Shown here: piece by piece, positions 9,797 to 36,684 of the stretch
Numbering within the stretch: position 1 is the first letter of the stretch
Layout of the letters: every line of letters begins with the position of its first letter
Assembly: GCF_019429625.1 (NCBI RefSeq)
Contig: NZ_JAHXRW010000001.1
Span: 62,001-126,000 of the forward strand
Direction: 5' to 3'
DNA from: Celeribacter sp. PS-C1
GTDB lineage: Bacteria > Pseudomonadota > Alphaproteobacteria > Rhodobacterales > Rhodobacteraceae
DNA: 64,000 nucleotides
The notes under the pieces: model-generated
Databases searched by the model: none
What the model saw: the letters and a program-made list of their open reading frames with translations, nothing else
Told to the model about the DNA's origin: nothing
Program-made: the position numbers and the translations under genes

Positions 9797-9800
9797 GCAG

Positions 9801-10586: not shown

Positions 10587-10599
10587 AGCCTAATCCAGC

Positions 10600-11820: not shown

Positions 11821-11823
11821 GTC

Positions 11824-12633: not shown

Positions 12634-12792
12634 GGCCTCATGATGACCGCAGCACAGAGGGAGGAAAACAGTTCATCGCGAAAAAGGTCAAAAAACCGCA
12701 ATATGCCGCCCAAGAATTAAGCGCATGGCGTCGACCGCTTGACCCCCCCGGCGATTGGACTAGGGTGCGCCCATAACATTCGGAGAGTTTCC

Positions 12793-13038: not shown

Positions 13039-13050
13039 GGATAAGGCCAC

Positions 13051-14349
13051 ATGGCCCGACCCTTTCCCTATCTGCTCTATTCCGGGCTAAGCCGTAAAAG
13101 CGGACGGCATCGCGCCGAACGGCTTGATCGCCTCGTCCAAAACGGAGCGCTCTCCCAGAGTGCCCGCGATCAGCGACTTGCGCAAAATCTGCCAAACCGC
13201 CCCAAAGGCGAAGTGCTCTGGCTGCACGCTGCAACCAGTTTTGCGCTTCGCCCCGCGATGGAGCTCATGTGTCGCATCAGCGAGGACCGGCCCGATATGT
13301 TCGGACTGATCACGCTATCCCCAGATGTGCAGCCGCTCGCAGGCGCTGCACTCGAAAATGGCCATCTCACGATCTTGCCAGAGGACGACAGCGCCATCGC
13401 GCGACGGTTTCTCGACCATTGGTCCCCCGACAGTCTCGTTTGGATCGGAGGCCAGTTCCGCCCGAACCTGCTGCGCGAAACGCATGAACGGCATATTCCC
13501 ACACTCGCGATCGAAGCCCCCGAGAGCCCAACCACGCTCGATCTGACCAGCCCCGTTCCCGGCCTGCGCAAACACGTGCTTGGCGGTTTCGATCACGTGA
13601 TCACCGCCACATCCGAGGCCGCGTATCCGTGGCGTCGTGCGGGTCTTAACGCTGAGCAGATCGAGGTTTTGGGCTATCTCGAAGAGGGCGGCATCGCGCC
13701 CAGCGTCGATGAAGAGGAGCTGACACGCCGGATGGCGGAGATCGGCACGCGCCCCACTTGGTATGCGGCGCGACTGGATCGTTCAGAAGTCAGCGAGGTG
13801 ATCCGCGCCCACAAACGTGCGCTGCGCCGCGCGCACCGACTGTTGTTGGCGCTATCCCTGTCCGATCCCTCAACGCGAGACAGCGTGTTGGCCCAGATGG
13901 AAACTGCGGGCCTGACTGCCGCAATTCTCGACCCAGACCACCCCATCTCCGAATCGGATCAGGTCGTCATTCTCGCGAATGAACCCCATCACAGCGAGGA
14001 AGGTCTCTGGCACAGGATCGCACCGATCAGCTTCATGGGAAGCTCTCTCGGGCCATTCGGCGGCAGTGATCCCTATCCCGCCGCCGCGATGGGCTCCGCG
14101 ATTTTACATGGCCGCAACGTCTCCGATTTCACCACCGCCTACGCCCGCCTTGCGGCCGGAAATGCGGTGCGCGCTGTGAATGATGGATTTGAGCTTGGCG
14201 AAGAGGTCGGACGTTTGATGTCCCCCGATCAGGCTGCGTTGATGGCGGGTGCGGCATGGGAAGTGGCCTCCACAGGCGCCGAGGTCACGGATCGCGTGGC
14301 AAATTTGGTGCAGGATTTCCTTGATCTTCGGGAAAGGATCACGCCATGA
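13051..14349 (+). CDS. WaaA/KdtA-family glycosyltransferase-like protein with altered active site
   Basis: 432 residues, matching the two-domain layout of Kdo transferase (glycosyltransferase N-terminal domain, then a GT-B C-terminal domain). Position between DUF4170 and lpxK fits lipid A-Kdo synthesis. However, key positions differ: the N-terminal motif usually reading HAxSxGE, which supplies the catalytic Glu, is HAATSFAL here; the ELWP-type block is GGQFRP; and the CMP-binding GGHNPLEPA block is GGSDPYPAA. The usual N-terminal membrane anchor is also weak. I infer a paralogue with changed or lost activity, and expect a canonical waaA elsewhere. It overlaps lpxK by four bases. Confidence 0.75.
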
Positions 14350-22722: not shown

Positions 22723-23637
22723 ATGTTTTCGAATGAGCGCACCTTGGTAGAAACACAGATCAATTTCAAAGACATCGGCGCGCGCCTAAAGGCCCACCGC
22801 CTGGGCCGCAACCTGTCGCCGGAAGATGTCGCCACCCGCCTGCACATTTCCCGTGCGGCGCTTTATCGTGCGGAAAAAGGCGAGATCGCGAAGATCGACA
22901 TGCTCTCCGCCATCGCTCAGGAACTTCAGGTGTCTTTGCCGAGCCTTCTCGGGGTTGGAATCGAATACGTCGACAACGCCCTTAGTTTCTTCGAACGCAT
23001 GCGCCAAATCGAAGATGAATGTGAGCAAATCATCGGCCTCTTCAGCCCGATTTCCTATCTGGTGACAACGGATCGCTATGATGCCGTTCTCAAGGATGTC
23101 CTAAGCGAATCCGTACCCAGTTCAGAACATGACGATATTGCAAAAATCCTTGATATTCTTGAGAAAAGAAAACAGCGCTTTGCTCAAAGGCGCCCGCTTC
23201 TGGCCTCTATTATTTCGGATGCGGACATCCGCAAATTCCTTCGCGAAGGATTGGAGGGCAGCCCCGAGTTGTCGTCCGAGATCCGCAAACAGCGACGCCG
23301 GATGGCTTTGGCGGAGGTGCGCCATATCGTCGAAATGTTGCGCGCGCCTGATATTGGCATCCAGATCGGCGTGGCCCGCGAACCGATTCCCTCGACCTCT
23401 TTCCAGATCATGCGCCAAGCCGGGCGCTCGATCCTCACGATCAGCCCTTTCCGCCTTGGTCATAACCCCAACATTCGCATCGGTGTCGGCATGATCACCT
23501 CTGCGCCGGAAGCCCTCGAGCTTCACGAAGGCATTGCCGAGCGGCTTTGGAACACCTCGCTCAAAGGGCGCGAGGCGGCCGAGCATGTCGAAGCGCTGAT
23601 TGCGCGCGAGGGTATTGAGGCGGAGATTTCAGCCTAA
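22723..23637 (+). CDS. XRE-family transcriptional regulator
   Basis: 304 residues from the ATG at 22723; ATG at 22684 would add 13 residues. The N-terminal helix-turn-helix is at about residues 13-70 (IGARLKAHRLGRNLSPEDVA, then HISRAALYRAEKGEI). The remaining 230 residues form a ligand-sensing or dimerisation part that I cannot assign to a named domain; the segment REPIPSTSFQIMRQ and SPFRLGHNPNIRIGVGMIT stand out. It lies 130 bases before a TRAP/pyrimidine operon on the same strand and shares a 16-bp motif between its own leader and that operon's leader, so it probably controls both. Confidence 0.82.
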   Translation: MFSNERTLVETQINFKDIGARLKAHRLGRNLSPEDVATRLHISRAALYRAEKGEIAKIDMLSAIAQELQVSLPSLLGVGIEYVDNALSFFERMRQIEDECEQIIGLFSPISYLVTTDRYDAVLKDVLSESVPSSEHDDIAKILDILEKRKQRFAQRRPLLASIISDADIRKFLREGLEGSPELSSEIRKQRRRMALAEVRHIVEMLRAPDIGIQIGVAREPIPSTSFQIMRQAGRSILTISPFRLGHNPNIRIGVGMITSAPEALELHEGIAERLWNTSLKGREAAEHVEALIAREGIEAEISA

Positions 23638-23680: not shown

Positions 23681-23696
23681 GTCTCATTTTTTAGAC
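23681..23696 (+). promoter_or_regulatory. Candidate operator upstream of the TRAP/pyrimidine operon
   Basis: GTCTCATTTTTTAGAC, 70 bases before dctP, matching the element at 22660-22675. GTCT/AGAC at its ends are an inverted repeat. A GGTCAA (23664-23669)/TTGACC (23704-23709) pair flanks it. Confidence 0.45.
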
Positions 23697-23766
23697 TTTT
23701 TTATTGACCTCCCCCCCACTTTGGGGAGTCTATGATGATCAGAACCAAACCAACCGGGAGCGCTCC

Positions 23767-24774
23767 ATGTCTCAACCCAAACCCCTTCTGTCCGCCGTGC
23801 TGCTCGCTGGACTGGCCCTGTCCAGCCCCGCGCTTGCCCAAGAGTATGTGGCCAAGATCGGACACCTCGAAAGCACGCAGCAGAGCCGTCACGTTCACCT
23901 CGAAAAAGTGGCAGAGCTCGTCGCCGAACGCACGGACGGCGATGTGGAGTTTCAGATTTTCCCGCAGGGCCAACTCGGCAACCAGCGTCAAATGAACGAA
24001 GGCGTGCAACTCGGCACCATTGAGGCCACCGTTGCACCCGCGGCCTTCCTTGGCGGCTTTAACCCGCTGGTGTCGATCCTCGACATCCCCTACCTGATCC
24101 CCGAAGACGCCGACAAAGCCGCCGCACTGCGTGACGGCCCCTTCGGTGAGGCCCTGCTCGACAGCTTCTCCGACAAAGGCATGGTGGCGATTGATCTCTG
24201 GCCCAACGGCAAGAAACAGTTCACCTCCAACGAGCCGCTCGACACGCTCGCCGACTTCGCCGGTCAGAAATTCCGTGTCATGGACAGCTCGATCCTGATC
24301 GAACAGTTCAACGCACTTGGCGCCTCCGCCATCGCTCTGCCGTTCGGTGAGCTTTACACCTCGCTGCAAACCGGCGTTGTGGACGGCGAAGAAAACCCGC
24401 TCGACACGATCAAGGCGATGAAATTCTACGAGGTTCAGAAAAACCTCGTCGTCTCCGATCACGGCGCGATGGAAGATGTGGTCCTCTTCAACCCGATGTT
24501 CTGGGAGAGCCTCCCGGAAGATTACAAGACCATCATCAAGGACGCCTTTGCCGAAGTCATCCCCGAGTTGACCGCTCACAAAACCGCTGCCGTCGACTCC
24601 GCGCTTGAGACCATTACCGAAGCCGGCACCAACGTGCGCGTCGCCGATGAGGCTGAGCGCGCAGAATTCCGCGACACGATGTTCGGCCCGGCCTCTGCCG
24701 CCTACGTTGCCAAAACCGGCGACGCGGGTCAGACCCTGCTCGACATCTACACGCAAGCCTACGGCGATTTGTAA
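23767..24774 (+). CDS. TRAP transporter solute-binding protein (DctP family)
   Basis: 335 residues from the ATG at 23767 (GGGAG upstream). Sec signal peptide MSQPKPLLSAVLLAGLALSS, cleavage near ALA-Q. The DctP fold is shown by FAGQKFRVMDSS, which holds the conserved arginine that binds the substrate carboxylate, and the block ALPFGELYTSLQTGVVDGEE. The protein captures an organic acid in the periplasm for the DctQM permease encoded next. It heads an operon that continues through pyrK, pyrD, an amidohydrolase and pyrE, so a carboxylated pyrimidine precursor such as orotate is a reasonable substrate guess. Confidence 0.92.
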   Translation: MSQPKPLLSAVLLAGLALSSPALAQEYVAKIGHLESTQQSRHVHLEKVAELVAERTDGDVEFQIFPQGQLGNQRQMNEGVQLGTIEATVAPAAFLGGFNPLVSILDIPYLIPEDADKAAALRDGPFGEALLDSFSDKGMVAIDLWPNGKKQFTSNEPLDTLADFAGQKFRVMDSSILIEQFNALGASAIALPFGELYTSLQTGVVDGEENPLDTIKAMKFYEVQKNLVVSDHGAMEDVVLFNPMFWESLPEDYKTIIKDAFAEVIPELTAHKTAAVDSALETITEAGTNVRVADEAERAEFRDTMFGPASAAYVAKTGDAGQTLLDIYTQAYGDL

Positions 24775-24812
24775 AACCTGACGGATCCGGGGCGCGCCGC
24801 CTCGGGTCTCTC

Positions 24813-24846
24813 CGCTCCGCATCGGTTCCGATCCAGATGCGGAGCG
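24813..24846 (+). repeat. Intercistronic stem-loop between the dctP- and dctQ-type genes
   Basis: Perfect 11-base arms at 24813-24823 and 24836-24846 (core GCTCCGCATC / GATGCGGAGC) with a 12-base loop. No T-run follows. Such hairpins after binding-protein genes often stabilise the upstream mRNA so that binding protein is made in excess. Confidence 0.65.
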
Positions 24847-24858
24847 TCTCTTTCCACA

Positions 24859-25368
24859 GTGATCGAAAGCCCCCTCATGCAAGCTCTCAATCTGCTCCGA
24901 ACGGTCGAAAGAACCGTTCTCATCGCCCTTTTCCTGATCATGGTGTTTCTCTACAGCGGCTCGGTCGTGACCCGCGAAATCGGTGGCACCTTTGCCAGCC
25001 GTTTTGCCTGGATCGAGGAAGCAGTGCGGATCATGAACCTGTTCCTCGTGTTCCTGGCTCTCGGGCTGGCGCTTGAACGGGGCAAGCATGTGGGCATCAC
25101 CAATATGCGCGATCGCCTGCCCGCGCCGTTGCTCAAGGGGGTGTTGAAACTCATTGATCTCGTCGGGCTGTGCATGAGCCTCTATGTCGCGTGGCTGGCG
25201 GTCGATCTGGTGCAATTCGTGCTCAAATCCGGCCAGAAATCCCCGACCCTTGGCGTACCCATGGGCGTGATCTACCTCGCGCCTGTTGCTGGCTTTCTCC
25301 TCTTGGGCCTGCGCTATGGGCTAAGCCTTTTGGGCCTCATCGACCGTTATCAGGAGGCCTCCGAATGA
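24859..25368 (+). CDS. TRAP transporter small permease (DctQ family)
   Basis: 169 residues from a GTG at 24859; ATG at 24877 is an alternative. Four membrane segments are visible at roughly residues 18-38, 58-75, 93-115 and 132-155, the DctQ layout. RFAWIEEAVRIMNLFLVFLA contains the family's W-x-EE segment. It pairs with the large permease DctM to form the membrane part of the importer driven by the sodium or proton gradient. The start follows the intercistronic hairpin, and its end overlaps the dctM start by four bases (ATGA). Confidence 0.9.
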   Translation: MIESPLMQALNLLRTVERTVLIALFLIMVFLYSGSVVTREIGGTFASRFAWIEEAVRIMNLFLVFLALGLALERGKHVGITNMRDRLPAPLLKGVLKLIDLVGLCMSLYVAWLAVDLVQFVLKSGQKSPTLGVPMGVIYLAPVAGFLLLGLRYGLSLLGLIDRYQEASE

Positions 25369-26648
25369 TCTTCGCCCTCATTATCGTTTTGGCCATCCTC
25401 TTGTTGGTGGCTGGCTTTGAGATGCTTTTGGTGCTGGGTATCCCCGCACTCGCTTACAAAGAAGCTTTCTATGGCCGCTTGCCCGATGCGGCCGTGGTGC
25501 AAAAGATTGTCGGTGGCATCGACCATTCGACGCTTCTGGCCATTCCCTTCTTCATCTTCGCGGCGAATCTCATGGGCTCCGGCCAAATCGCGCGCCAACT
25601 CATCTCTGTCGTTAAGGCCCTCGTGGGTCACACCAAGGGCGGCATGGGCCATGTCGTCGTCGGCGGCAGCATGGCGTTTGGCGCGGTCTCTGGCTCTGCA
25701 CCTGCCACGGTGGCCGCCATGGGCCGCATGGTCTACCCGGAGCTGCGCAAAGCGGGCTATTCCGACCGGTTCAGCCTTGGGCTTCTGGTTTCTTCGGCAG
25801 AAACTGCGCTTTTGATTCCGCCGTCGATCACGCTGATCGTCTACGGCTGGATCACCGGCACGTCGATTTCCAAACTCTTCGCGGGCGGTCTCGCCGTCGG
25901 CCTGCTCCTTGGCCTCGCGTTCTCCGTCTACGTCCGTATCCAAGCCGCGCGCGACGGCGTCAGCCATGATCCGCGCTTGCCGTGGTCCGAACGCTTCAAG
26001 GCGATCTGGGACGCCAAATGGGCGCTTGGAATGCCGGTGATCATTCTGGGCGGCATTTATTCCGGCTTTATCACCCCCACAGAGGCCGCCGCAGTCAGTG
26101 TGGTCTATGCCATCCTCGTCGAGATGTTCGTCTTCCGCGCGCTTGATCTCAAAGGTCTCGCCAAGATCACCGAAGACAGCGCCGTGAATACCTCAATCAT
26201 CTTCGTGCTTTTGGCCATGGGCGGGTTGATTTCCTTCTTCGTCACCTTGGCGCAAGTGCCCAATGAAATCATCGCCTTCCTTGAGGCCACCGGCGCGGGC
26301 AAGATCGCCTTCCTGATCGCGGTCAACGTGCTGTTCTTCGTGGCAGGCATGTTCATTGATCCGAACTCAACACTTTTGGTTCTGGTGCCGCCGCTTTATC
26401 CGGTCGCCATGAGTTTCGGTATCGATCCGGTGCATTTCGGCATGTTGGTGACGCTCAATGTCAGCCTCGGGATGATCACGCCGCCCTTCGGCCTCGATAT
26501 CTTCGTCGCATCGTCCACGCTCAATAAACCTGTGGCGGACATCATTCGCGGCGTCTGGCCCTTCGTGCTGGTGAACCTGATCGTGCTCCTGCTGATCACC
26601 TATATCCCGCAAATCTCCCTCTTCATTCCAAAGCTGATCTACGGCTAA
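25365..26648 (+). CDS. TRAP transporter large permease (DctM family)
   Basis: 427 residues from the ATG at 25365, chosen because it overlaps the dctQ stop and gives a hydrophobic start (MIFALIIVLAILLLVAG). About a dozen membrane segments follow. Family motifs: IPFFIFAANLMGSGQIARQL, GAVSGSAPATVAAMG and the C-terminal repeat PFGLDIFVASS. DctM forms the transport path of the TRAP importer with DctQ. pyrK begins 14 bases downstream, so the transporter and the pyrimidine enzymes are almost certainly cotranscribed. Confidence 0.94.
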   Translation: MIFALIIVLAILLLVAGFEMLLVLGIPALAYKEAFYGRLPDAAVVQKIVGGIDHSTLLAIPFFIFAANLMGSGQIARQLISVVKALVGHTKGGMGHVVVGGSMAFGAVSGSAPATVAAMGRMVYPELRKAGYSDRFSLGLLVSSAETALLIPPSITLIVYGWITGTSISKLFAGGLAVGLLLGLAFSVYVRIQAARDGVSHDPRLPWSERFKAIWDAKWALGMPVIILGGIYSGFITPTEAAAVSVVYAILVEMFVFRALDLKGLAKITEDSAVNTSIIFVLLAMGGLISFFVTLAQVPNEIIAFLEATGAGKIAFLIAVNVLFFVAGMFIDPNSTLLVLVPPLYPVAMSFGIDPVHFGMLVTLNVSLGMITPPFGLDIFVASSTLNKPVADIIRGVWPFVLVNLIVLLLITYIPQISLFIPKLIYG

Positions 26649-26662
26649 TCCGAGGCAGACCA

Positions 26663-27505
26663 ATGACCTACATTCCGACCACCGTGTCCGTCCCTGTTCC
26701 GCAGGGGCTACGGCCCCGCTGTTCCGAAGCCACCTGTCGCGTGGTCTCGAATACCCCTGTAAATGGCGAATATCGCCTGCTCACTCTCGACGCACCCGAG
26801 GCCATTCTCGACTGTCAGCCGGGTCAGTTTTTCCAACTGCTCTGCCCTGCGCCCGAAGGGGAGAACCCTTTTCTGCGTCGCCCGATGAGTATCTACGGAT
26901 ATGACAAATCGGCGGGCCGTCTGGAGTTTCTCTATAAAATTGCGGGCGCCGGCACGCGCGGTCTCGCCACGCTGCGCCCCGATGACACCTTCAATGTGCT
27001 TGGCCCTCTGGGACAGGGGTTCTCTATGCCCGACGACTGGCAAAATCTCATGCTCGTCGCACGCGGCGTGGGCCTTGCGACCCTCGCTCCGCTCGCCCGC
27101 ATGGCGCAGGAGAGGGGGCGCAAGCTGACCGCGATCTGTTCCGCGCGCCGACCGGAATTGGCAATGTCCGTCGAGCTATTCGAAAGCTATGGCGCCGAAG
27201 TGATCGTCGTCCACGACGAGGATGGAAGCTCTACGCCCGAGGCGCTGCGCCCGTTGATCGAGGCACGGATCGCCAAAGGAGACGTAGATGCCTTCTACAC
27301 CTGCGGCTCCTCGCGGCTTTTGCGGATGCTGCAAGACCTCGGTGAGAGCCATGGCATCCCCGGCGAGATCGCCATGGAGCAACAAATGGCCTGTGGTCTC
27401 GGCATGTGTCAGGCCTGTGTGCGCAGTTTCCGGGTCGGCGACCGCATCATTCAACGCCGCGTCTGTCGCGAAGGCCCGGTGTTCCCTATTTCGGAGGCGA
27501 TGTGA
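26663..27505 (+). CDS. pyrK: Dihydroorotate dehydrogenase electron-transfer subunit (PyrK)
   Basis: 280 residues. PyrK carries FAD and a [2Fe-2S] cluster and passes electrons between dihydroorotate dehydrogenase and NAD+. The FAD motif RRPMSIYGYD is at about 72-81, the NAD-binding part begins near VARGVGLATLAP, and the cluster ligands are Cys244, Cys249, Cys252 and Cys268 (C-x4-C-x2-C-x15-C), exactly the PyrK spacing. Most alphaproteobacteria use only the membrane, quinone-linked class 2 PyrD, so this soluble NAD-linked type is unusual here. It overlaps pyrD by one base. Confidence 0.88.
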   Translation: MTYIPTTVSVPVPQGLRPRCSEATCRVVSNTPVNGEYRLLTLDAPEAILDCQPGQFFQLLCPAPEGENPFLRRPMSIYGYDKSAGRLEFLYKIAGAGTRGLATLRPDDTFNVLGPLGQGFSMPDDWQNLMLVARGVGLATLAPLARMAQERGRKLTAICSARRPELAMSVELFESYGAEVIVVHDEDGSSTPEALRPLIEARIAKGDVDAFYTCGSSRLLRMLQDLGESHGIPGEIAMEQQMACGLGMCQACVRSFRVGDRIIQRRVCREGPVFPISEAM

Positions 27506-28443
27506 TGAAAGACCTGCAAACCATCGACCTTAGCGCCCGCATTGGTGCGCTGACCCTCAAGAATCCGATCATGCCCGCCTCTGGCACCTTCTCCGAAGAT
27601 TTGGCAGATGTGTTCGACCTCGATGTCTTGGGTGCGCATGTGCTCAAAACCATCATGCATGGCACGCGCGCGGGCAACCCGACTCCGCGGGTGTGCGATA
27701 TTCAGTCGGGCATGATCAACGCCATCGGCATTCCCTCCAAAGGCATCGACTATTTCCGCGATGAAATGCTGCCCTATTGGTCAGAGTTCAAAGCCCCGCT
27801 CGTGGTGTCGATTTCTGCGCATTCCTACGATGAATTCGCCCGACTTTGTCGTGAAGTCAGCTTGCCCGGCGTGACTGCGATCGAGGCGAATATCTCCTGC
27901 CCGAACATCGAGGCGGACGGCAACGCCTTCGCCATGCGGCCCGACACAACGCAAGAGATCGTGACGCGTCTGCGCACCGAAACCGATCTGCCGCTTTGGG
28001 CCAAACTCACGCCGAACACCGGCGAACCCGTCGAGGTGGCCCGCGCCGCGGAAGAGGCGGGGGCCGATGCTTTGGTCGTGGCCAACACCATGCTGGGCAT
28101 GTCCATCGACGTCGACAGCCGCCGCCCACGTCTTGGCAATGTCATGGGCGGCATGTCCGGTCCGGCGATCAAACCCATTGCGCTGCGGATGACCTATCAA
28201 TGCGCCCGCGCCTGCGACATTCCGGTGATCGGCTGCGGCGGAATCTCGACGCTAAACGATGTGCTCGAATTCCTCATCGCCGGGGCGCAGGCGGTTCAGG
28301 TCGGCACGGCAACCTTCCAATCGCCCACGGTCATGGCGCGCCTGATCGCGGAGTTGGAAGGTTGGATGACGACGCAGGAGATCACCTCGCTCGAAGAAGT
28401 CATCGGCTCCATCGAAGGCTCTGAGGCCGGGGTGTTCGAATGA
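27505..28443 (+). CDS. pyrD: Dihydroorotate dehydrogenase, class 1B catalytic subunit
   Basis: 312 residues from the ATG at 27505. FMN TIM barrel interconverting dihydroorotate and orotate. The catalytic loop reads ANISCPN with Cys132 as the base; class 2 enzymes have Ser at this position, so this is class 1, and the adjacent pyrK makes it class 1B. NPIMPASGTF near the start and GCGGISTLNDVLEFLIAGAQ near the end bind FMN. NAD-linked enzymes of this class can run toward orotate reduction during orotate catabolism. It overlaps the amidohydrolase by four bases. Confidence 0.9.
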   Translation: MKDLQTIDLSARIGALTLKNPIMPASGTFSEDLADVFDLDVLGAHVLKTIMHGTRAGNPTPRVCDIQSGMINAIGIPSKGIDYFRDEMLPYWSEFKAPLVVSISAHSYDEFARLCREVSLPGVTAIEANISCPNIEADGNAFAMRPDTTQEIVTRLRTETDLPLWAKLTPNTGEPVEVARAAEEAGADALVVANTMLGMSIDVDSRRPRLGNVMGGMSGPAIKPIALRMTYQCARACDIPVIGCGGISTLNDVLEFLIAGAQAVQVGTATFQSPTVMARLIAELEGWMTTQEITSLEEVIGSIEGSEAGVFE

Positions 28444-29720
28444 AACATCACCGCTCAGAAACCACCAGCACAGCGGACCTGTCCGCCAAGGCCGCCGAAC
28501 TGTTTGAGGACATCCGCGCCCTCTCACGCGATGCGGCGGGCGTTAGTCGTCCCGCCTTTTCCGAAATCGAGACCGAGACACTCGACTATCTCGCCAAACA
28601 GGCGCGTGCCGAAGGGATCTGTGTCGAAGAAGACGCCGGACGAAACCTCTTGTTCTATTTGCCGCAACACGCCTCGGCCAAACGGTTCACCGTCATCGGA
28701 AGCCATGTGGACTCGGTTCCGATGGGCGGCAATTACGACGGGCTTGCGGGGGTCATCGCCGGGCTGATGGTCCTGATCGCCGCCCGCCGTGGCCTGCGCG
28801 ATCTGTCCCGACCGGTCAGGGTTCTGGCCATGCGCGGTGAGGAAAGTGCTTGGTTCGGCGCCTGCTATCTTGGCTCCAAAATGCTGACGGGCAGCTTGCC
28901 CGAGGGAGAGTTCAACGCCGCACACAAAGGCGATGGTCGGACATTGGGCGCCCATTTGCAGGCCCTCGGCATCAACACCGCGCCGATTGAGGCGCAGGAG
29001 CCGATCTGTGATTTGTCCCAGATCGAAGCCTATCTAGAGCTTCATATCGAACAGGGCCCGCTTCTCGTCGAGCGCAATATTCCCGCCGCCGTGGTCACCG
29101 GCATTCGCGGCAATTTCCGCTATCGAGACAGCCGCTGTATCGGGCAGGCCGGGCATTCCGGCGCTGTACCGCGCGCCTATCGCCACGACCCGGTTCTGGC
29201 CTTTGCCGAACTGATGCACCGGCTCGACGGCACATGGCAGCACCTGCTCAACACCGGCAAGGATCTCGTGCTGACCTCCGGTGTGGTCGGCACCGATCCG
29301 GCGCGCCATGCGATTGCCCGCATTCCCGACGAGATTGCCTTTACCCTCGACATTCGTTCGCAAGACGCCGGAACGCTCGACCAGATGCGCAGCTACCTGA
29401 AAGGCGAAATGGCGGATATCGCGCGCTCCCGTGGCGTTCGCTTTGAACTTGGGGCCGAGGTCGCGGTTGCGCCCGCCTTGATGGATGCCGATCTGGTTCA
29501 GGGGCTGGAAGCGGCCATGGCAGAGGTCACTGGCGAAGCATTTTCGATGGCCTCCGGTGGCGGCCATGATGCGGCGGTCTTTGCCCAAGCCGGCGTGCCC
29601 GCTGGCATGGTTTTTGTCCGCAATCGCAATGGCTCTCACAATCCAGAGGAAGCAATGGAAATCGCCGATTTCATGGTGGGCGTCGATATCCTTTCCACCT
29701 ATATGGAGGCGGCATCATGA
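28440..29720 (+). CDS. M20-family Zn-dependent amidohydrolase (N-carbamoyl-amino-acid/ureido hydrolase type)
   Basis: 426 residues. Metal-binding residues of the AllC/HyuC/beta-ureidopropionase group are all visible: His89 (GSHVDS), Asp100 (NYDGLAG), Glu134-Glu135 (RGEESAWF), His202 (LHIEQGP) and His400 (GSHNPEEAM). These enzymes split a carbamoyl group from N-carbamoyl amino acids or allantoate, releasing CO2 and ammonia. Between pyrD and pyrE, a natural substrate would be N-carbamoyl-aspartate (ureidosuccinate), which would yield aspartate. That step is inferred from context; N-carbamoyl-beta-alanine or allantoate are alternatives. Four-base overlaps join it to both neighbours. Confidence 0.85.
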   Translation: MKHHRSETTSTADLSAKAAELFEDIRALSRDAAGVSRPAFSEIETETLDYLAKQARAEGICVEEDAGRNLLFYLPQHASAKRFTVIGSHVDSVPMGGNYDGLAGVIAGLMVLIAARRGLRDLSRPVRVLAMRGEESAWFGACYLGSKMLTGSLPEGEFNAAHKGDGRTLGAHLQALGINTAPIEAQEPICDLSQIEAYLELHIEQGPLLVERNIPAAVVTGIRGNFRYRDSRCIGQAGHSGAVPRAYRHDPVLAFAELMHRLDGTWQHLLNTGKDLVLTSGVVGTDPARHAIARIPDEIAFTLDIRSQDAGTLDQMRSYLKGEMADIARSRGVRFELGAEVAVAPALMDADLVQGLEAAMAEVTGEAFSMASGGGHDAAVFAQAGVPAGMVFVRNRNGSHNPEEAMEIADFMVGVDILSTYMEAAS

Positions 29721-30439
29721 AGGAGCCTCGCGCTATGCCCCAGACCATGCCACTCAGCCCCGAGACCCGCGCCGATTTCGCCCGCCGCACAGCGCTTGCG
29801 TTGCTCGACATTCACGCCGTCGAAGTGGCCGAAACGCGCCCCTTCATCCTCTCCTCCGGGATCGCCAGCCCGGTCTATATCAACGTGCGCAAGGTGATCT
29901 CCGTCCCGGCGGTGCGCGAAAAGCTTATGGGGTTTGCCTCCGAAGTGATCGACGCCGAAATCGGGCGCGCTGATCTGGACGCCATCGCAGGTGCGGAAAC
30001 CGCTGGCATCCCTTTTGCCGCGTGGATCGCCGCGGAGACCGGCCTGCCGATGCAATATGTCCGCAAACGTGCGCAGGGTTTCGGCCCAGAGGCGCATATC
30101 GAGGGCCTGTGGGAGCCCGGCCAGCGCGTGCTGCTGGTCGAGGATTTGACCACCGATGGCGCCTCTAAACTCCGTTTCTGCGAGGCCCTGCGAGCGGCGG
30201 GTCTCGTGGTCCAGGATGTGTTCATGCTGTTCCAGTATGACATCTTCCCGGAGACCCGAAGCGCGATGGAACGCGCGGGTATTCGGCTTAATGCCTTGGC
30301 GACGTGGAAGGACATTCTCGACGTTGCCCGGACGCACGACCGCTTTACCGCCGAGCAGCGCGACACCATCGCCGCGTTTCTCGACGCCCCTCTGGACTGG
30401 TCTGCCGCCCATGGTGGCGCGCGCAGCCTGACATTCTAA
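29717..30439 (+). CDS. pyrE: Orotate phosphoribosyltransferase
   Basis: 240 residues from the ATG at 29717 (ATGA overlap); Met7 or Met11 are alternative starts. PyrE couples orotate to PRPP to give OMP, the entry to UMP. The core shows FILSSGIASPVYINVRKV, GAETAGIPFAAWIA, YVRKRAQGFG and the PRPP loop VLLVEDLTTDGASK, a form also seen in other roseobacter PyrE proteins. Having pyrE in an importer operon suggests that imported orotate is salvaged directly into nucleotides. Whether this is the only pyrE of the genome cannot be seen from this window. Confidence 0.9.
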   Translation: MKEPRAMPQTMPLSPETRADFARRTALALLDIHAVEVAETRPFILSSGIASPVYINVRKVISVPAVREKLMGFASEVIDAEIGRADLDAIAGAETAGIPFAAWIAAETGLPMQYVRKRAQGFGPEAHIEGLWEPGQRVLLVEDLTTDGASKLRFCEALRAAGLVVQDVFMLFQYDIFPETRSAMERAGIRLNALATWKDILDVARTHDRFTAEQRDTIAAFLDAPLDWSAAHGGARSLTF

Positions 30440-30462
30440 CCTCTGTTTTTAAGGAGACAGCC

Positions 30463-30780
30463 ATGTTCACCTTCCTTCTCGATCTGACCCAAGAAAAAGG
30501 TCGCGGCATCCACGCCTACTCCGCCGTCGCAAAAGCGGCATTCGAACGCGCTGTGACGGAACCCGATCATACCGCCGCGTTCTATTTCCTCGCGACAAGC
30601 GCGGAGAATTTCGTCGATCTACACGAACGTCAGCCGCTCTCGAGCGAAGAGCTCGAGCGGAATTTCGACATGTTTCAAGCGGATGTCGAAGCCTTTGAGG
30701 GTGCCGCAGAAGAGAGCGCGGAAAAGCGTCTCGCCGTTCTCAATGAGATCGTAAAAGCCCGGATCGAACAGACCCGCTGA
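30463..30780 (+). CDS. Small cytoplasmic protein of unknown function, last gene of the pyrimidine operon
   Basis: 105 residues, ATG at 30463 with AAGGAG seven bases upstream. No signal peptide or membrane segment; the sequence looks fully helical (for example AKAAFERAV, SSEELERNFDMFQAD, EKRLAVLNEIVKARIEQ) with an acidic centre. I do not recognise a family. Tight spacing after pyrE (23 bases) and the stem-loop after it place it as the end of the TRAP/pyrimidine operon, so it may regulate or accompany one of these enzymes. Confidence 0.72.
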   Translation: MFTFLLDLTQEKGRGIHAYSAVAKAAFERAVTEPDHTAAFYFLATSAENFVDLHERQPLSSEELERNFDMFQADVEAFEGAAEESAEKRLAVLNEIVKARIEQTR

Positions 30781-30842: not shown

Positions 30843-31874
30843 TCAGTCCTGATGCTCAAGACCGGGAGGCGGCGCGCAGCTTTCGCGCTCGATCAGTTCC
30901 GTGGGCATGATCTCCGTCTGCACATCGAACTTAGATGCCTTCATCAAGCCCACCAAAATCTCGGCCGCGCGCGACCCAATGCTCGCGCGCTTCTGACGAA
31001 TGGTGGTCAGAGGCGGCAAAGCGTAGGCCGCGATTTCGATATTGTCGAAGCCAACGATGGAGATGTCTTGCGGCACCCGAAGCCCGCCGCGCACCAGCGC
31101 CTGAAGAAGACCGAGCGCCATTTCATCGTTGTCACAAAACACGGCTGTCGGACGATCCGAAAGGGCCAAAAGCGACACGCCCGCATCGTGACCCGATTTC
31201 AGCTTAAAATCCCCCTCGAAGCGCGCCACAAGGTCAACTCCCTCCGCGCGCATCGCGGCCTCGACGCCTTTGGAGCGGGACTTTGTCAAAGTATTCGCAC
31301 TCGGTCCGGAAAGATGCGCAATCTTGCGATGACCCAGCTCGATAAGATGCGAGATCGCGAGCGCCGCGCCGCCCTCGTTGTCGGCAAGCACGCGCGGGGC
31401 ATCGAGACCCTCGACCCATTCACAGGCCTGCACGACCGGCGGGCAGCCATGATGCTTGAACAACCCCGCGTCCAGACTGCCATCGAGAACAATCACCCCG
31501 TCAGCATGAGAGCGGGTGAGATAGGGGGCGATCGCGGAGAGATCGGGCGGTCCATCGCCAGCCTGCGTGTCCAGAACAAGAAGGTTAATGCCCTCTTGCC
31601 GCAATGCCGATGAAATGCCCGAGAGAATTTCCGAAAAGAACGGATTGGCCAATTTGGGCACCAACGCGAGCACCGCACCAACCTGTTGTTGGCGCAGATT
31701 GCGAGCCGTCAAATTGACCGTATACCCGGTTTCCGCGACCGCCTGCTCAACGGCTTTTCGTGTGCGTTCCGAAACGATGGACGGATTCGACAGAACCCGG
31801 CTGACCGTTGCGGTCGAAACGCCCGCCCGTTTGGCGACGTCTTGGATACGCGGTGTTTTCTGGTGTTCGTTCAA
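30843..31874 (-). CDS. LacI-family transcriptional regulator
   Basis: 343 residues from a TTG at 31874 with GGAGG eleven bases upstream. The N-terminal helix-turn-helix is RIQDVAKRAGVSTATVSRVL with the hinge LTARNLRQQQ; the rest is a periplasmic-binding-protein-like sugar sensor (GFDNIEIAAYALPPLTTIRQ near the end). It is divergent from an isomerase-oxidoreductase-ABC importer operon, and a LacI-type half-palindrome lies in the gap, so it most likely represses that operon until its sugar or a metabolite is present. Confidence 0.92.
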   Translation of the reverse strand: MNEHQKTPRIQDVAKRAGVSTATVSRVLSNPSIVSERTRKAVEQAVAETGYTVNLTARNLRQQQVGAVLALVPKLANPFFSEILSGISSALRQEGINLLVLDTQAGDGPPDLSAIAPYLTRSHADGVIVLDGSLDAGLFKHHGCPPVVQACEWVEGLDAPRVLADNEGGAALAISHLIELGHRKIAHLSGPSANTLTKSRSKGVEAAMRAEGVDLVARFEGDFKLKSGHDAGVSLLALSDRPTAVFCDNDEMALGLLQALVRGGLRVPQDISIVGFDNIEIAAYALPPLTTIRQKRASIGSRAAEILVGLMKASKFDVQTEIMPTELIERESCAPPPGLEHQD

Positions 31875-31954
31875 CGTTCTTGGCCCTCCACAGCTCTTTC
31901 AGCCTAGTGTCATTTTCGGGCCTTGAAAACCTTTACATATTGTGTGAGGTTAAA

Positions 31955-31968
31955 TGAAACCGATTACA
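31955..31968. promoter_or_regulatory. Candidate LacI-type operator
   Basis: TGAAACCGATTACA, an imperfect palindrome with a central CG, the usual form of LacI-family operators (TGAAACCGGTTTCA type). It lies 25 bases before the isomerase start. A further inverted repeat AACCT/AGGTT occurs at 31928-31932 and 31947-31951. Confidence 0.5.
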
Positions 31969-31992
31969 TTGATGGAATCGGCGGGAGGAACT

Positions 31993-33051
31993 ATGCAGAC
32001 CATGAAAGGGCCAGGACTGTTTCTGGCGCAATTCGTCGGCGACACGCCGCCGTTTGATACATTCGACGCGATCTCAAAGTGGGCGGCCGACTGTGGCTAT
32101 GAGGGCGTGCAGGTGCCGAGCGGCGCCGACACCCTCATTGATCTCGACAAAGCCGCGACCTCAAAAGACTACTGCGACGCCTTGAAAGGCCGCGCGGCGG
32201 ACCAAGGCATCACCATCACGGAACTGTCCGCCCACACGCAGGGCCAGTTGGTCGCCGTGCATCCGGCCTACGACCTCGCCTTTGACGGCTTTGCCCCCGC
32301 CTCCCTGCGCGGCAATCCGAAAGCCCGTCAGGCTTGGGCCGTCGATCAGGTAAAAAAGACCATCGACGCCTCAGCCAATCTCAGCCTCGACCGAATGGCC
32401 GCCTTTTCCGGCGCTCTGGCTTGGCCGTATTTATACCCTTGGCCCCAGCGCCCTGCTGGATTGATCGAGGCAGCCTTTGACGAATTGGCAGCCCGCTGGC
32501 GACCTCTACTGGATCATGCCGCAGAAAAAGGCGTGAAGATTTGCTACGAAATCCATCCCGGTGAGGACCTGCATGATGGCGTGACGTTCGAGATGTTTCT
32601 CGACCGCCTGGATCAGCATTCCGCCGCGATGATGCTCTACGATCCCTCGCACTATGTGCTGCAGCAGCTCGACTATCTTGATCACCTCGACATCTACGCC
32701 GACCGGATCGGCATGTTCCATGTGAAAGACGCCGAGTTCAACCCGACCGGGCGCCAAGGGGTCTATGGCGGATATCAAGGCTGGACCGACCGCGCCGGAC
32801 GTTTCCGCAGTCCGGGTGACGGTCAGGTCGATTTCAAAGCGATCTTTTCCAAACTCACCGCGATGGGTTTCGACGGCTGGGCCGTTGTCGAGTGGGAATG
32901 CGCGCTGAAGCACCCCGAAGACGGTGCCCGCGAAGGTGCACAATTCGTCCGCGACCACATCATTCGCGTCACGGAACATGCGTTTGACGACTTTGCAGCG
33001 GCGGGCACGGATGCGGCGGCCAATCGCAAAATGCTTGGGCTGGAGGGCTGA
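31993..33051 (+). CDS. Sugar phosphate isomerase/epimerase (xylose isomerase-like TIM barrel)
   Basis: 352 residues; the ATG at 31993 follows GGGAGG. The AP_endonuc_2/IolE-type barrel is seen in YEGVQVPSG, ITELSAHTQGQLVAVHPAY, KICYEIHPGEDLHDG (metal-binding Glu), LYDPSHYVLQQ (Asp, His), IGMFHVKDAEF (His, Asp) and GWAVVEWECA (final Glu). These supply the metal site of isomerases and epimerases of this superfamily. In an operon with a Gfo/Idh/MocA dehydrogenase, it probably isomerises an oxidised sugar or inositol derivative. The exact substrate is not known. Confidence 0.87.
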   Translation: MQTMKGPGLFLAQFVGDTPPFDTFDAISKWAADCGYEGVQVPSGADTLIDLDKAATSKDYCDALKGRAADQGITITELSAHTQGQLVAVHPAYDLAFDGFAPASLRGNPKARQAWAVDQVKKTIDASANLSLDRMAAFSGALAWPYLYPWPQRPAGLIEAAFDELAARWRPLLDHAAEKGVKICYEIHPGEDLHDGVTFEMFLDRLDQHSAAMMLYDPSHYVLQQLDYLDHLDIYADRIGMFHVKDAEFNPTGRQGVYGGYQGWTDRAGRFRSPGDGQVDFKAIFSKLTAMGFDGWAVVEWECALKHPEDGAREGAQFVRDHIIRVTEHAFDDFAAAGTDAAANRKMLGLEG

Positions 33052-33053
33052 TC

Positions 33054-34184
33054 ATGGACCGTCATATTCCAATCCGTCTCGGCATGGTCGGCGGCGGGAT
33101 CGGTGCAATGATCGGCGAGGTGCACCGCATTGCCGCCCGCCTCGACAACAGCTTTGATCTGATCGCGGGCGCGCTGTCTTCGACGCCTGAGAAGGCCGAA
33201 GAGAGCGCCGCCAAAATCGGCATCGCCCCGGAACGCACCTATTCGGATTTCACCGAGATGGCCCGCGCGGAAGCGGCGCGCACCGATGGCATCGAAGCTG
33301 TGTCGATCTGCACGCCCAACCACCTGCATTTCCCAGCGGCCAAAGCCTTTCTGGAGCAGGGCATTCACGTCATTTGCGACAAGCCGATGACCTCGACCCT
33401 AGAACAGGCGCTTGAGCTGGGCGAGATTGCCCGCAAGGCCGATGCGCTGTTTGTCCTCACGCACAACTACTCCGCCTATCCGCAACTGCGTCTGGCGCGG
33501 GAGTTGGTTCAGTCCGGCGCACTTGGCCCGATCCGTCTTGTGCAGGTCGAATATGCGCAGGATTGGCTTGCGGAGCCGACCGAAAGCAAACAGGCCGATT
33601 GGCGCACCGATCCGGCGCGCGCCGGAGCCGGTGGCTCGATCGGTGACATCGGCACCCACGCGTTCCAACTTGCCCGCTTTGTCAGCGGCCAGCGCCCCGC
33701 ACAAATTGCGGCCGATTTGACCAGCTTCGTCCCCGGTCGGCGCGTGGATGACAATGCGCATGTGATGATGCGCTACGCCTCTGGCGCCAAGGGTACGCTT
33801 TGGTGCTCACAGGTTGCGCCGGGCACGGAAAACGGTCTGAAACTGCGCATCTACGGGGAAAAAGCCGGGATCGAATGGTCGCATGAAACGCCCGAAACCC
33901 TCTGGTTCACGGCACTCGGCGAGCCCGCACGCAAGCTGCGCCGTGGCGGCCCCGAAGGCACAATGATCGGCAGTCGCGTTCCCGCGGGTCACCCGGAAGG
34001 CTACCTCGAAGGCTTCGCCACGCTTTATGGCGAGGCGGCGGATGCGATCCGGGCCTATCAAGCCGGTCAAGCTATCGAAACGCTTTTGCCCGGCATCAAG
34101 GACGGCATCGAAGGCCTACGTTTCATTGACGCCTGCCTGCGCTCCAACGCCAAGGACGCGGCATGGGTGGAGCTTATGCCATGA
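33054..34184 (+). CDS. Gfo/Idh/MocA-family NAD(P)-dependent oxidoreductase
   Basis: 376 residues. The Rossmann motif is LGMVGGGIGAMIG (about residues 9-21); the family EKP motif appears as CDKPMTSTLEQA, and the C-terminal catalytic domain contains GGSIGDIGTHAFQLARF with the conserved Asp and His. Such enzymes oxidise or reduce sugars, inositols or their derivatives. It lies two bases after the isomerase and overlaps the ABC ATPase gene by four, so all are in one operon under the LacI-type regulator. Substrate not deducible. Confidence 0.9.
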   Translation: MDRHIPIRLGMVGGGIGAMIGEVHRIAARLDNSFDLIAGALSSTPEKAEESAAKIGIAPERTYSDFTEMARAEAARTDGIEAVSICTPNHLHFPAAKAFLEQGIHVICDKPMTSTLEQALELGEIARKADALFVLTHNYSAYPQLRLARELVQSGALGPIRLVQVEYAQDWLAEPTESKQADWRTDPARAGAGGSIGDIGTHAFQLARFVSGQRPAQIAADLTSFVPGRRVDDNAHVMMRYASGAKGTLWCSQVAPGTENGLKLRIYGEKAGIEWSHETPETLWFTALGEPARKLRRGGPEGTMIGSRVPAGHPEGYLEGFATLYGEAADAIRAYQAGQAIETLLPGIKDGIEGLRFIDACLRSNAKDAAWVELMP

Positions 34185-35683
34185 CCTCGCCGATCCTTGC
34201 CCTCGAGGGGGTCTCCAAGTCCTTTGGGCCGATTGAAATTCTGCACAGCGTCGATTTTGCGCTCCGGCCCGGCGAAATCCACGCGTTGATCGGTGAGAAT
34301 GGCGCGGGCAAGTCGACGACGATGAAAATCATTGCCGGCTACCTCGATGCTTCCGGTGGCAAGGTGACCTGCGATGGTGCGCCCGCCACATTCACCTCAT
34401 CGCGCGAGGCCGAGGCCCGTGGCATCGTCATGATCCATCAGGAATTCAATCTCGCCGAACATCTGGGCGTGGATCAGAATATCTTTCTGGGCCGCGAGAT
34501 CAAAAAAGGCTGGCGTCTGGACCACGCAGCGATGCGCCAAAAGACGCAGGAGCTTTTGGATCAACTCAATTGCCGGATCGACCCGTCTCAGCCGGTGTCG
34601 AGCCTGTCCGTCCCCGACAAGCAAATGGTCGAGATCGCAAAGGCGCTGTCACGCGATTTGCGGGTTCTGATCATGGATGAGCCGACCGCCGTTCTGACCG
34701 AGCGCGAATGTGAAATCCTGTTCCAGCAGGTCGAGCGTTTGCGGGATCAAGGCGTCGCCATTCTCTACACCTCGCACAAGCTTTCCGAGGTCAAACGCAT
34801 CTGCGACCGCGTGTCGGTGCTGCGCGATGGGGCGATGGTAAAATCCGGTCCGGTTTCCGAGATCAGCGAAGACGAGATGGCGACCGCCATGGTCGGGCGT
34901 GAACTCACCGATCTGTATCCCGCCAAAGCCATACCGCAGGACAAGATCCTGCTTGAGGTCGAAAACCTGAGCGTGCCCGGCAAGGTCGACCATGCGAGCC
35001 TGCATCTGCGTCGAGGTGAAGTTCTCGGGATCGGCGGTCTGGTCGGGTCCGGGCGTACCGAGTTTGCCGAAGCCATCGCGGGCCTGCGCAAACGGTCGGG
35101 CCAAGTGAGACTGAACGGACAAGAGTTGCCAGCAGACGATGTGCGTGCCGCCATGAACGCCGGACTGGTCTATCTGACCGAAGACCGCAAAGGCGCGGGG
35201 CTTTTGCTTGAGAAAGGGCTGCGTGAAAACCTGACGCTGCCCTATCTGGAGCAATTCGGTCGCCCGTTGATCGACCGACACTCCGAAGAGGCCGCGCTTG
35301 AGAAAGCGATCGCTGATTTTGCCATTCGGGTGCCGTCGCCGGACATGCTGGTCGGCAATCTGTCTGGTGGGAACCAACAGAAACTTTTGCTCGCCAAGAC
35401 GCTTTTGAACGATCCGCAGGTCATCATCATCGACGAGCCGACCCGCGGCATCGACATCGGCACCAAACAACAGATTTACGACCTGATCGCCAAACTTGCC
35501 GCTGACGGCCATGCGATCATCGTCATTTCCTCGGAGATGCCAGAGCTCATCGGCCTCGCCTCGCGCGCGCTCGTTATGCACGCGGGCCATGTCGTCGGAG
35601 AGGTCGCAGGCGAGGAGGTCACAGAACAGAATATCGTCCGTCTTGCCATGGGCCTGACGGGTCACGGAGAGGATGCCGCATGA
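34181..35683 (+). CDS. Sugar ABC transporter ATP-binding protein (RbsA/MglA type)
   Basis: 500 residues from the ATG at 34181. Two fused ATPase domains, the CUT2 layout. The first has Walker A GENGAGKSTT, signature VSSLSVPDKQMVEIAKALSR and Walker B LIMDEPT; the second has a degenerate Walker A (GLVGSGRTEF), signature LSGGNQQKLLLAKTL and Walker B VIIIDEPTRGID. It powers import with the permease and binding protein encoded downstream. The start overlaps the oxidoreductase stop and the end overlaps the permease start, both by four bases. Confidence 0.95.
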   Translation: MTSPILALEGVSKSFGPIEILHSVDFALRPGEIHALIGENGAGKSTTMKIIAGYLDASGGKVTCDGAPATFTSSREAEARGIVMIHQEFNLAEHLGVDQNIFLGREIKKGWRLDHAAMRQKTQELLDQLNCRIDPSQPVSSLSVPDKQMVEIAKALSRDLRVLIMDEPTAVLTERECEILFQQVERLRDQGVAILYTSHKLSEVKRICDRVSVLRDGAMVKSGPVSEISEDEMATAMVGRELTDLYPAKAIPQDKILLEVENLSVPGKVDHASLHLRRGEVLGIGGLVGSGRTEFAEAIAGLRKRSGQVRLNGQELPADDVRAAMNAGLVYLTEDRKGAGLLLEKGLRENLTLPYLEQFGRPLIDRHSEEAALEKAIADFAIRVPSPDMLVGNLSGGNQQKLLLAKTLLNDPQVIIIDEPTRGIDIGTKQQIYDLIAKLAADGHAIIVISSEMPELIGLASRALVMHAGHVVGEVAGEEVTEQNIVRLAMGLTGHGEDAA

Positions 35684-36684
35684 CTATGAGCAGCGCGAAG
35701 ACGACCGAAAAGCCGCGTGGCGCAAAGCTTGATCTCAAAGTGATCGGGCCGATTGTTGCGCTGATCGTGCTGATCCTGATCGGGATGTCGCTTAACCCGA
35801 ACTTTCTCAGCTACGCCAACATCACAAATGTGCTCGCACGCTCTGCGTTCATTGGCATCATCGCTGTCGGCATGACCTTTGTCATCACCGCCGGCGGACT
35901 CGACCTGTCGGTCGGCTCGATGGCGGCTTTTGTGGCGGGGCTCATGATCCTGACGATGAATCTGCTCACCGACAGCATGGGGATCGGCGTCGATGTGATC
36001 CTGATCGGGATCGCCCTGTCTCTTGTCGCGGGTCTGATCGCCGGGCTTGTGAACGGGTTGCTGATCACGAAAGTCGGGATCGAAGCCTTCATCGTGACGC
36101 TGGGGACGATGGGCATTTATCGTTCGCTCATCACATGGCTGGCCGACGGTGGCACTTTGAGCCTCGGCTTTGAGATGCGCGAACTCTACCGCCCCGTCTA
36201 TTACGGTGGAATTTTTGGCGTCACCTGGCCGATCATCGCGTTTTTCGTCGTGGCTTTGCTCGGCGAAATCGTCATGCGCCACACGGCATTTGGACGCCAC
36301 TGCGCCGCCATCGGGTCGAACGAAAAGGTTGCGCGCTATTCGGCCGTGTCCGTTCTGAAAGTCCGCCTTGCCACTTACACCCTCTTGGGTCTGCTCGTCG
36401 GCTTTGCCGTCGTGATGTATGTGCCGCGCCTCGGCTCCGCCTCCTCCTCTACGGGTCTGTTGTGGGAACTCGAGGCGATCGCGGCGGTCATCATCGGCGG
36501 CACGCTTCTCAAGGGCGGTTTCGGACGCGTTTGGGGCACGGTGGTCGGCGTTCTGATCCTGAGCCTCATCGGCAACATTCTCAACCTCACGGATTTCGTA
36601 AGCCCCTATCTGAACGGCGCGATCCAAGGGGTGGTCATCATTCTGGCGGTGGTGCTGCAACGCAGCCGATCCACTGACAGATAA
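35680..36684 (+). CDS. Sugar ABC transporter permease (RbsC type)
   Basis: 334 residues with about nine to ten membrane segments. Family hallmarks are GMTFVITAGGLDLSVGSMAA near the start of the core, LAGLVNGLLI-like (IAGLVNGLLITKVGIEAF), the coupling segment FGRHCAAIGSNEKVARYSAV, and GGTLLKGGFGRVWGT. It forms the channel of the CUT2 importer with the double ATPase encoded just upstream. 31 bases separate it from the binding-protein gene. Confidence 0.94.
   Translation: MTMSSAKTTEKPRGAKLDLKVIGPIVALIVLILIGMSLNPNFLSYANITNVLARSAFIGIIAVGMTFVITAGGLDLSVGSMAAFVAGLMILTMNLLTDSMGIGVDVILIGIALSLVAGLIAGLVNGLLITKVGIEAFIVTLGTMGIYRSLITWLADGGTLSLGFEMRELYRPVYYGGIFGVTWPIIAFFVVALLGEIVMRHTAFGRHCAAIGSNEKVARYSAVSVLKVRLATYTLLGLLVGFAVVMYVPRLGSASSSTGLLWELEAIAAVIIGGTLLKGGFGRVWGTVVGVLILSLIGNILNLTDFVSPYLNGAIQGVVIILAVVLQRSRSTDR

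Follow-up and report, generated by a model that had tools for sequence, protein, structure and literature searches.

Why should a bacterium keep extra copies of two pyrimidine enzymes in one operon with an importer and an amidohydrolase? This question is raised by a locus of Celeribacter sp. PS-C1, which lies in a window of 64,000 nucleotides (contig NZ_JAHXRW010000001.1, positions 62,001 to 126,000, assembly GCF_019429625.1); "the window" denotes this whole stretch throughout, which is part of a genome of 3.87 Mb in 40 contigs. Nine genes stand together there, encoding an XRE-type regulator, the three subunits of a tripartite ATP-independent periplasmic (TRAP) transporter (DctP, DctQ and DctM), both subunits of a class 1B dihydroorotate dehydrogenase (PyrK and PyrD), an M20-family amidohydrolase, an orotate phosphoribosyltransferase (PyrE) and a small protein. 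Judged from the sequences and their genomic neighbourhoods, this is likely to be a dedicated operon for the regulated uptake of orotate and its reductive degradation to aspartate, with PyrE forming a salvage branch.

The importer and its substrate

The operon holds a complete TRAP transporter, with DctP, DctQ and DctM all scoring above their Pfam cut-offs (PF03480, PF04290 and PF06808, respectively). The closest solved structure to DctP found in a PDB search is 4nn3_A (E 6.6e-130) from Maridesulfovibrio salexigens, which is identical in 202 of 315 aligned residues (64%), while the nearest DctPs among the genomes scanned are those of Celeribacter (91-92% identical). In the accessible part of PMC11668362, 4NN3 is described with orotic acid bound and with a lysine at position 152 replacing the usual arginine of the pocket. 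Orotic acid is also listed among the ligands from a screen of TRAP binding proteins in the available text of the review PMC5812351. The earlier note on this DNA, which knew of no described marine TRAP system for orotate, was mistaken on this point, as the ligand report for 4NN3 and the ligand list of the review show that an orotate TRAP binding protein, that of M. salexigens, was known beforehand.

Seven aligned DctPs were used to scan genomes for relatives; 130 places were confirmed, and the 80 best of these were retained. DctPs with at least 60% identity are here called close (60 of the 80 loci) and the remaining 20 distant; the 60 close loci are not independent, since some come from strains of a single species and others are contigs from the family genomes described below. 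With the published position 152 mapped to an alignment column by our own matching, the lysine is kept in all 62 close DctPs (those of the window, 4NN3 and the 60 loci), and all 20 distant DctPs have arginine. DctP of the window thus shares the unusual lysine with 4NN3, which is itself known as a structure with its ligand, and its substrate is probably orotate. A second position of 4NN3, where the accessible part of PMC11668362 notes an asparagine (by our matching, the N of LGN), was rejected as a substrate marker: the residue is found in 55 of the 62 close DctPs but in all 20 distant ones too, and it is uninformative because the distant 20 were chosen by a search pattern containing it. The distant DctPs were also rejected as carriers of the same system, since pyr genes are found at none of their 20 loci, some of which lie on short contigs (L106, with only 3 kb, had no room to show any).

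Dihydroorotate dehydrogenase and the M20 enzyme

PyrD scores above the cut-offs of two class 1B models (NF005574, 345 bits with a cut-off of 269; TIGR01037, 315 with a cut-off of 270), contains the catalytic-cysteine loop ANISCPN and has 5ue9_A as its top match in the PDB. In PyrK the iron-sulphur domain PF10418 (DHODB) is above cut-off, the four cluster cysteines are at positions 244, 249, 252 and 268, and the FAD domain PF00970 scores slightly too low (20.8, cut-off 21.1). The assignment to class 1B in the earlier note, made from the loop and the four cysteines, is thereby confirmed for PyrD and, for PyrK, supported by the iron-sulphur domain. The note also called this type of enzyme uncommon in alphaproteobacteria; of 295 genomes in the host's family, 8 encode a PyrD of the operon type (E <= 1e-40).

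The M20 enzyme is above the cut-off of the hydantoinase/carbamoylase model TIGR01879 (262, cut-off 204) and below those of narrower models, and its best PDB match is 3n5f, an N-carbamoyl-L-amino acid hydrolase. Its place in the family is also supported by the motif HIEQG and by the conserved residues, among which H89, D100, E135, H202 and H400 are invariant in seven sequences and have a role as metal ligands. The gene context points to N-carbamoyl-aspartate as the substrate. Residue R245 (in HSGAVPR) was rejected as proof of this substrate, as it is also found in the M20 enzyme of locus L145, which has no pyr neighbours, and as a marker, as it is lacking in three pyr-linked M20 enzymes (L077, L149 and L150). 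Two further candidates were not used as evidence: the motif IRGN, which separates most pyr-linked M20 enzymes yet occurs at the pyr-less locus L148, and an M20 tree with long branches, from which the three genomes with linked ABC (ATP-binding cassette) genes and all but one of the pyr-less enzymes were missing, rows having been lost through the removal of duplicates.

Conservation of the gene set

The whole nine-gene set stands together in seven of the eight family genomes with this PyrD, host genome included. The same gene order, which the earlier note proposed to look for in relatives, is therefore present, and the set is more than a product of chance. The eighth genome, G263, has pyrK and pyrD with SnoaL-like and cupin genes and without M20 (L027, 5688-8360), which is another context for class 1B.

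Among the 60 close dctP loci, 45 have pyrK, pyrD and M20 within 9 kb, and 43 of these clusters also contain pyrE. One of the 45, from Pseudodesulfovibrio (L082), has a different class 1B pair as its pyrK and pyrD, placed after pyrE. Outside the 45, a Desulfovibrio locus (L088) has genes for M20, a dihydroorotase and PyrE near a close dctP. The gene set is also found in Hyphomicrobiales and partly in relatives of Desulfovibrio. In G701, an alphaproteobacterium of another family, the regulator, the palindrome described below, the TRAP genes, pyrK, pyrD, M20, pyrC and pyrE are all present.

Dihydroorotase, PyrE and the biosynthetic copies

The absence of a dihydroorotase, remarked on in the earlier note, is true of the window operon and not of the genome, which encodes two: one of the TIGR00856 type on contig C37, beside a second pyrE, and one of the TIGR00857 type on C36. 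Ring opening could be performed by such a dihydroorotase encoded outside the operon. In relatives the gene is found in the operon itself: 16 of the 45 clusters, and L088 too, have a class II dihydroorotase placed between M20 and pyrE (that of L088 scores above the TIGR00856 cut-off), which makes the route from orotate to aspartate complete in one cluster there. At least one class II dihydroorotase is present in each of 18 genomes searched and two are present in three; in two of these three, G089 and G302, the matches have the same coordinates, so that they look like a single genome. A tree placed the operon and housekeeping copies apart with weak support (39 and 17), and a claim of gain or loss was dropped. 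At locus L090, near 7326 between M20 and pyrE, there is only a partial dihydroorotase match (34% identical), possibly the remnant of a lost pyrC.

PyrE of the operon is above the cut-off of NF001729 (285, cut-off 245), slightly below those of TIGR00336 and PF00156, and 45% identical to the other copy on C37. The genome further encodes a class 2 PyrD on C38 and the decarboxylase of orotidine monophosphate (OMP), PyrF, on C1. A search for a second pyrD and pyrE, advised in the earlier note, thus finds both; PyrD and PyrE of the operon are therefore extra copies, and the possibility that they are the sole biosynthetic ones is excluded.

The regulator and its likely operator

A gene for the XRE-type regulator is found beside 45 of the 60 close dctP loci. 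When up to one mismatch is allowed, the palindrome TCTCA-N4-TGAGA precedes dctP at 43 of the 45 loci with the regulator and at none of the 15 without it; 20 of the 45 have it exactly, 23 with one mismatch and 2 with two mismatches. When these stretches are shuffled base by base, a palindrome this good arises in 0.6% of trials. A search of the whole host genome for the pattern TCTCANNNNTKAGA gives five sites, and an all-A/T centre is seen only in that of the operon. A TTGACC at 23704-23709, after the palindrome of the window, was noted by eye as a possible -35 element.

The AlphaFold2 (AF2) model of the regulator has a mean predicted local distance difference test score (pLDDT) of 87.1. A search of the PDB for its fold at E <= 0.001 gives one weak match, a phospholipase-D-like protein (template modelling score, TM, 0.37), and the motif HxKxxxxD is not seen in the regulator sequence. 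A degenerate sensor domain is therefore possible. Any effector, and the sign of the regulation, are putative.

A proposed pathway and its alternatives

In the proposed mechanism, DctP would capture orotate and DctQM would bring it into the cell, where PyrDK would use NADH to reduce it to dihydroorotate; both the transport of orotate by this DctP and the reductive direction of PyrDK are predictions. A dihydroorotase, encoded elsewhere in this genome and within the operon in many relatives, would convert dihydroorotate to N-carbamoyl-aspartate, from which the M20 enzyme would release aspartate, CO2 and ammonia. Hydrolysis of the carbamoyl group is irreversible, and this step would pull the near-equilibrium reactions before it and set the direction of the pathway. 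Through PyrE, some orotate would be channelled to OMP and on to uridine monophosphate (UMP), and the palindrome before dctP would be the site at which the XRE protein controls the operon. The import of orotate followed by salvage or by degradation to aspartate, as put forward in the earlier note, gains support from the closeness of DctP to 4NN3 and from the dihydroorotases. Dihydroorotate and carbamoyl-aspartate, which that note named as further candidates for import, are conceivable in its place, with evidence neither for nor against them. As M20 stays with pyrK and pyrD with or without PyrE, and many versions of the cluster include a dihydroorotase, degradation is favoured as the main function, with salvage as a side branch.

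Several observations weigh against this pathway. The window operon contains no dihydroorotase, and its PyrE points to salvage, for which the M20 enzyme is not needed. All NCBIfam PyrK models that match PyrK do so below their cut-offs, and a scan for consensus promoters found none. The pyr genes and M20 are absent near 14 of the 60 close dctP loci, 3 of which are short of contig (L072 and L089 end less than 1.5 kb after dctP, L051 after 3.6 kb), so that the importer can evidently function where they are missing; at five of these loci (L045, L053, L056, L057 and L061), for which some neighbours were scanned, there was no hint of another substrate. Finally, at three loci with an M20 gene in another family (L142-L144) there is no match to pyrK, pyrD or dihydroorotase in the stretches concerned, which fits other substrates too.

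One alternative is a pathway for nucleotide scavenging only, in which orotate, dihydroorotate or carbamoyl-aspartate is imported, PyrDK works oxidatively, PyrE forms OMP and the M20 enzyme deals with overflow or has another task. The presence of PyrE in 43 of the 45 clusters with pyrK, pyrD and M20, and in L088, would agree with this, as would the OMP decarboxylase encoded in the host genome and, in the case of one Agrobacterium plasmid, next to the cluster. In Lactococcus lactis, moreover, the class 1B enzyme serves pyrimidine synthesis. We nevertheless consider scavenging alone unlikely, since the genome already has a class 2 PyrD, dihydroorotases and a PyrE, the M20 enzyme would waste precursor, and the inspected clusters of Klebsiella and two Agrobacterium plasmids retain M20 with no PyrE annotated. 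The relative of DctP that was crystallised with orotate, according to the accessible part of PMC11668362, also speaks against it. The same structure bears on a second alternative, in which the compound used is a relative of orotate (for example a substituted form or a different cyclic ureide acid) and the M20 enzyme cuts the matching N-carbamoyl acid. The specificity of the M20 enzyme is not readable from its sequence, which stays below the narrower NCBIfam models, and at locus L165 the small protein has an ABC importer and a gene of the hydantoinase type as its neighbours, both of which leave room for such a substrate. However, PyrD, PyrE and the dihydroorotase of the relatives act on orotate or on compounds adjacent to it, and with orotic acid as the ligand reported for 4NN3 a related compound seems quite improbable.

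The pyr-less close dctP loci would be expected if a generic dicarboxylate TRAP importer stood by chance beside unrelated pyrimidine genes. This is very hard to reconcile with the recurrence of the set in seven of the eight family genomes with this PyrD, in Hyphomicrobiales and partly in relatives of Desulfovibrio, with the co-occurrence of regulator and palindrome and with the conserved gene order, and we give it almost no weight. Degradation of orotate with a salvage branch is the reading that we retain.

The module on plasmids and with other importers

Related clusters occur on plasmids, in part with another importer. On a Klebsiella plasmid, a divergent gene of the major facilitator superfamily (MFS) is followed by pyrK, pyrD, M20, pyrC, the regulator and the small protein; the regulator is 41% identical to that of the window, the small protein belongs to the new family (hidden Markov model E 5.7e-13), and the MFS protein matches an aromatic acid/H+ symport model below cut-off. 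The stretch is matched at >= 99% by 55 Klebsiella plasmid records, and in 53 of these the match spans 80% or more of its length; a megablast search with it in 20,395 records of E. coli gave no match. Both Klebsiella plasmids inspected (L153, NZ_CP069904.1, and L154, NZ_CP050823.1) carry lacY and lacZ at a distance of 1.4 kb from the module, and one of the two comes from milk. Ruminant milk is rich in orotate, and the lac genes hint that the Klebsiella module may serve the use of milk orotate.

The full TRAP version is found on plasmids of Nitratireductor and Pacificitalea, and a Roseomonas plasmid has an MFS gene, pyrK, pyrD, M20 and pyrE behind a LysR gene. On two Agrobacterium plasmids, pyrK and pyrD are followed by a gene in which M20 is fused to the small protein; on one of these (L155), pyrF and an MFS gene are close to the cluster. 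The palindrome precedes the cluster on the Nitratireductor, Pacificitalea and both Agrobacterium plasmids, and was looked for and not found at the Roseomonas cluster. In the three genomes of L142-L144, all of one family, a pyrE-like gene adjoins M20, which is 47-48% identical to that of the window; L144 continues with SBP_bac_3 and ABC genes, an importer that possibly takes up carbamoyl-aspartate or orotate, and its pyrE-like protein does not reach the cut-off of NF001729.

On balance we lean towards a portable module for orotate utilisation that has spread, with exchange of its importer (TRAP or MFS, perhaps ABC), across Rhodobacterales, Hyphomicrobiales, Acetobacteraceae, Desulfovibrionaceae and Klebsiella plasmids. 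Its parts would be a core of PyrK, PyrD and M20, often a dihydroorotase and/or PyrE, the XRE regulator with its palindrome, and the small protein.

The small protein

The small protein was aligned with 29 relatives, and its AF2 model consists of five helices with a mean pLDDT of 94.6. At E <= 0.001 it has no match in a fold search against the PDB and no family in Pfam or NCBIfam. In the two Agrobacterium plasmids (L149, 9001-10659, and L155, 6986-8644), M20 and a C-terminal small protein form one polypeptide; both fusions have 552 residues and are 93% identical, and they therefore probably result from one event. The fusion suggests that the small protein works together with the M20 enzyme, any role of it being putative. 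At E <= 1e-6, the family is found in 3 of 385 genomes of the class, host genome included. In G701 (L166) its gene lies about 6 kb from the regulator gene of the operon. That it is a partner of M20 only is not borne out by G954, which has no M20 match at L165. There (7136-13536), the small protein is accompanied by a hydantoinase-type amidohydrolase, a protein of the D-Glu_cyclase family and an ABC importer of the NMT1 type, which may belong to a different pathway for cyclic ureides.

Gene layout

From dctP to the small gene, all genes run in one direction (Table 1). The gaps are 84 bases between dctP and dctQ, -4 between dctQ and dctM, 14 between dctM and pyrK, -4 between pyrK and pyrD, -4 between pyrD and M20, 11 between M20 and pyrE (14 with the ATG at 29735) and 23 between pyrE and the small gene. 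The earlier note had the order and coordinates of these eight genes right, and its range of -4 to about 85 bases agrees with the measured -4 to 84; it overlooked the ninth gene, that of the regulator, and the likely operator. Where its heading spoke of an importer fused in one operon with the enzymes, the genes are indeed adjacent and no protein fusion is meant. In the profile searches, the regulator sequence was entered from 22741 and the small protein without its first residue.

Table 1. Features of the operon and its upstream region, in window coordinates
Feature	Position	Strand	Basis
XRE-type regulator, 304 aa, HTH_3 and a C-terminal domain without Pfam match	22723..23637	+	HTH_3 above cut-off
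Likely operator TCTCATTTTTTAGA, one mismatch to TCTCA-N4-TGAGA	23682..23695		Palindrome comparison across loci
dctP, TRAP substrate-binding protein, probably orotate-binding	23767..24774	+	PF03480; match to 4nn3_A
dctQ, small TRAP membrane subunit	24859..25368	+	PF04290 above cut-off
dctM, large TRAP membrane subunit	25365..26648	+	PF06808 and TIGR00786 above cut-off
pyrK, electron-transfer subunit of class 1B dihydroorotate dehydrogenase	26663..27505	+	PF10418 above cut-off; four cluster cysteines
pyrD, catalytic subunit of class 1B	27502..28443	+	NF005574 and TIGR01037 above cut-off
M20-family amidohydrolase, proposed N-carbamoyl-aspartate hydrolase	28440..29720	+	TIGR01879 above cut-off; substrate from gene context
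pyrE, orotate phosphoribosyltransferase, second copy of the genome	29735..30439	+	NF001729 above cut-off
Small five-helix protein, 105 aa, unnamed family	30463..30780	+	Alignment with 29 relatives; AF2 model

Downstream, a separate cluster occupies 30843-36684 of the window. It opens with a LacI-type regulator on the minus strand, identified by profile, and is followed on the plus strand by genes that, judged by eye, resemble those of a sugar isomerase or epimerase, an oxidoreductase and a sugar ABC importer.

Relation to known systems and meaning

Bacterial orotate degradation was worked out in clostridia long ago, and Clostridium oroticum ferments orotate via dihydroorotate and carbamoyl-aspartate to aspartate. 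The operon resembles this fermentation in its class 1B dihydroorotate dehydrogenase and in the proposed steps, with the reductase and an M20 enzyme in the operon and a dihydroorotase elsewhere (in the cluster in the 16 relatives and L088 mentioned above). It differs in that its carriers are not known to ferment orotate and in its TRAP importer, PyrE, XRE regulator and M20 enzyme. The class 1B nature of the C. oroticum enzyme is given by a reference title in the accessible part of PMC9326563. A reductive uracil pathway (a PreTA-like reductase, PydB and PydC) is also present in the host genome, on contig C12; there too the ring is reduced and opened and an M20 enzyme removes the carbamoyl group, but the C12 genes are separate and the M20 enzyme of the operon is only 25-27% identical to PydC. 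The biosynthetic PyrDK of Lactococcus (1ep1) belongs to the same two-subunit family, whereas the copy described here is an extra one, linked to an importer and a hydrolase in a genome that also has a class 2 PyrD.

Orotate-binding TRAP proteins and clostridial orotate reduction are already known. Among the matches listed in open-licence literature, no such operon and no genes for orotate degradation are described, and a description elsewhere is possible. The cluster offers a complete and testable set of importer, enzymes, regulator and operator, and the small protein, which is conserved as part of it, has no family in the libraries searched (Pfam and NCBIfam). A function can also be proposed for plasmid genes that are annotated as "Zn-dependent hydrolase", "dihydroorotate dehydrogenase" or "hypothetical protein". 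The cluster further points to orotate dissolved in seawater, and perhaps that of milk, as a nutrient.

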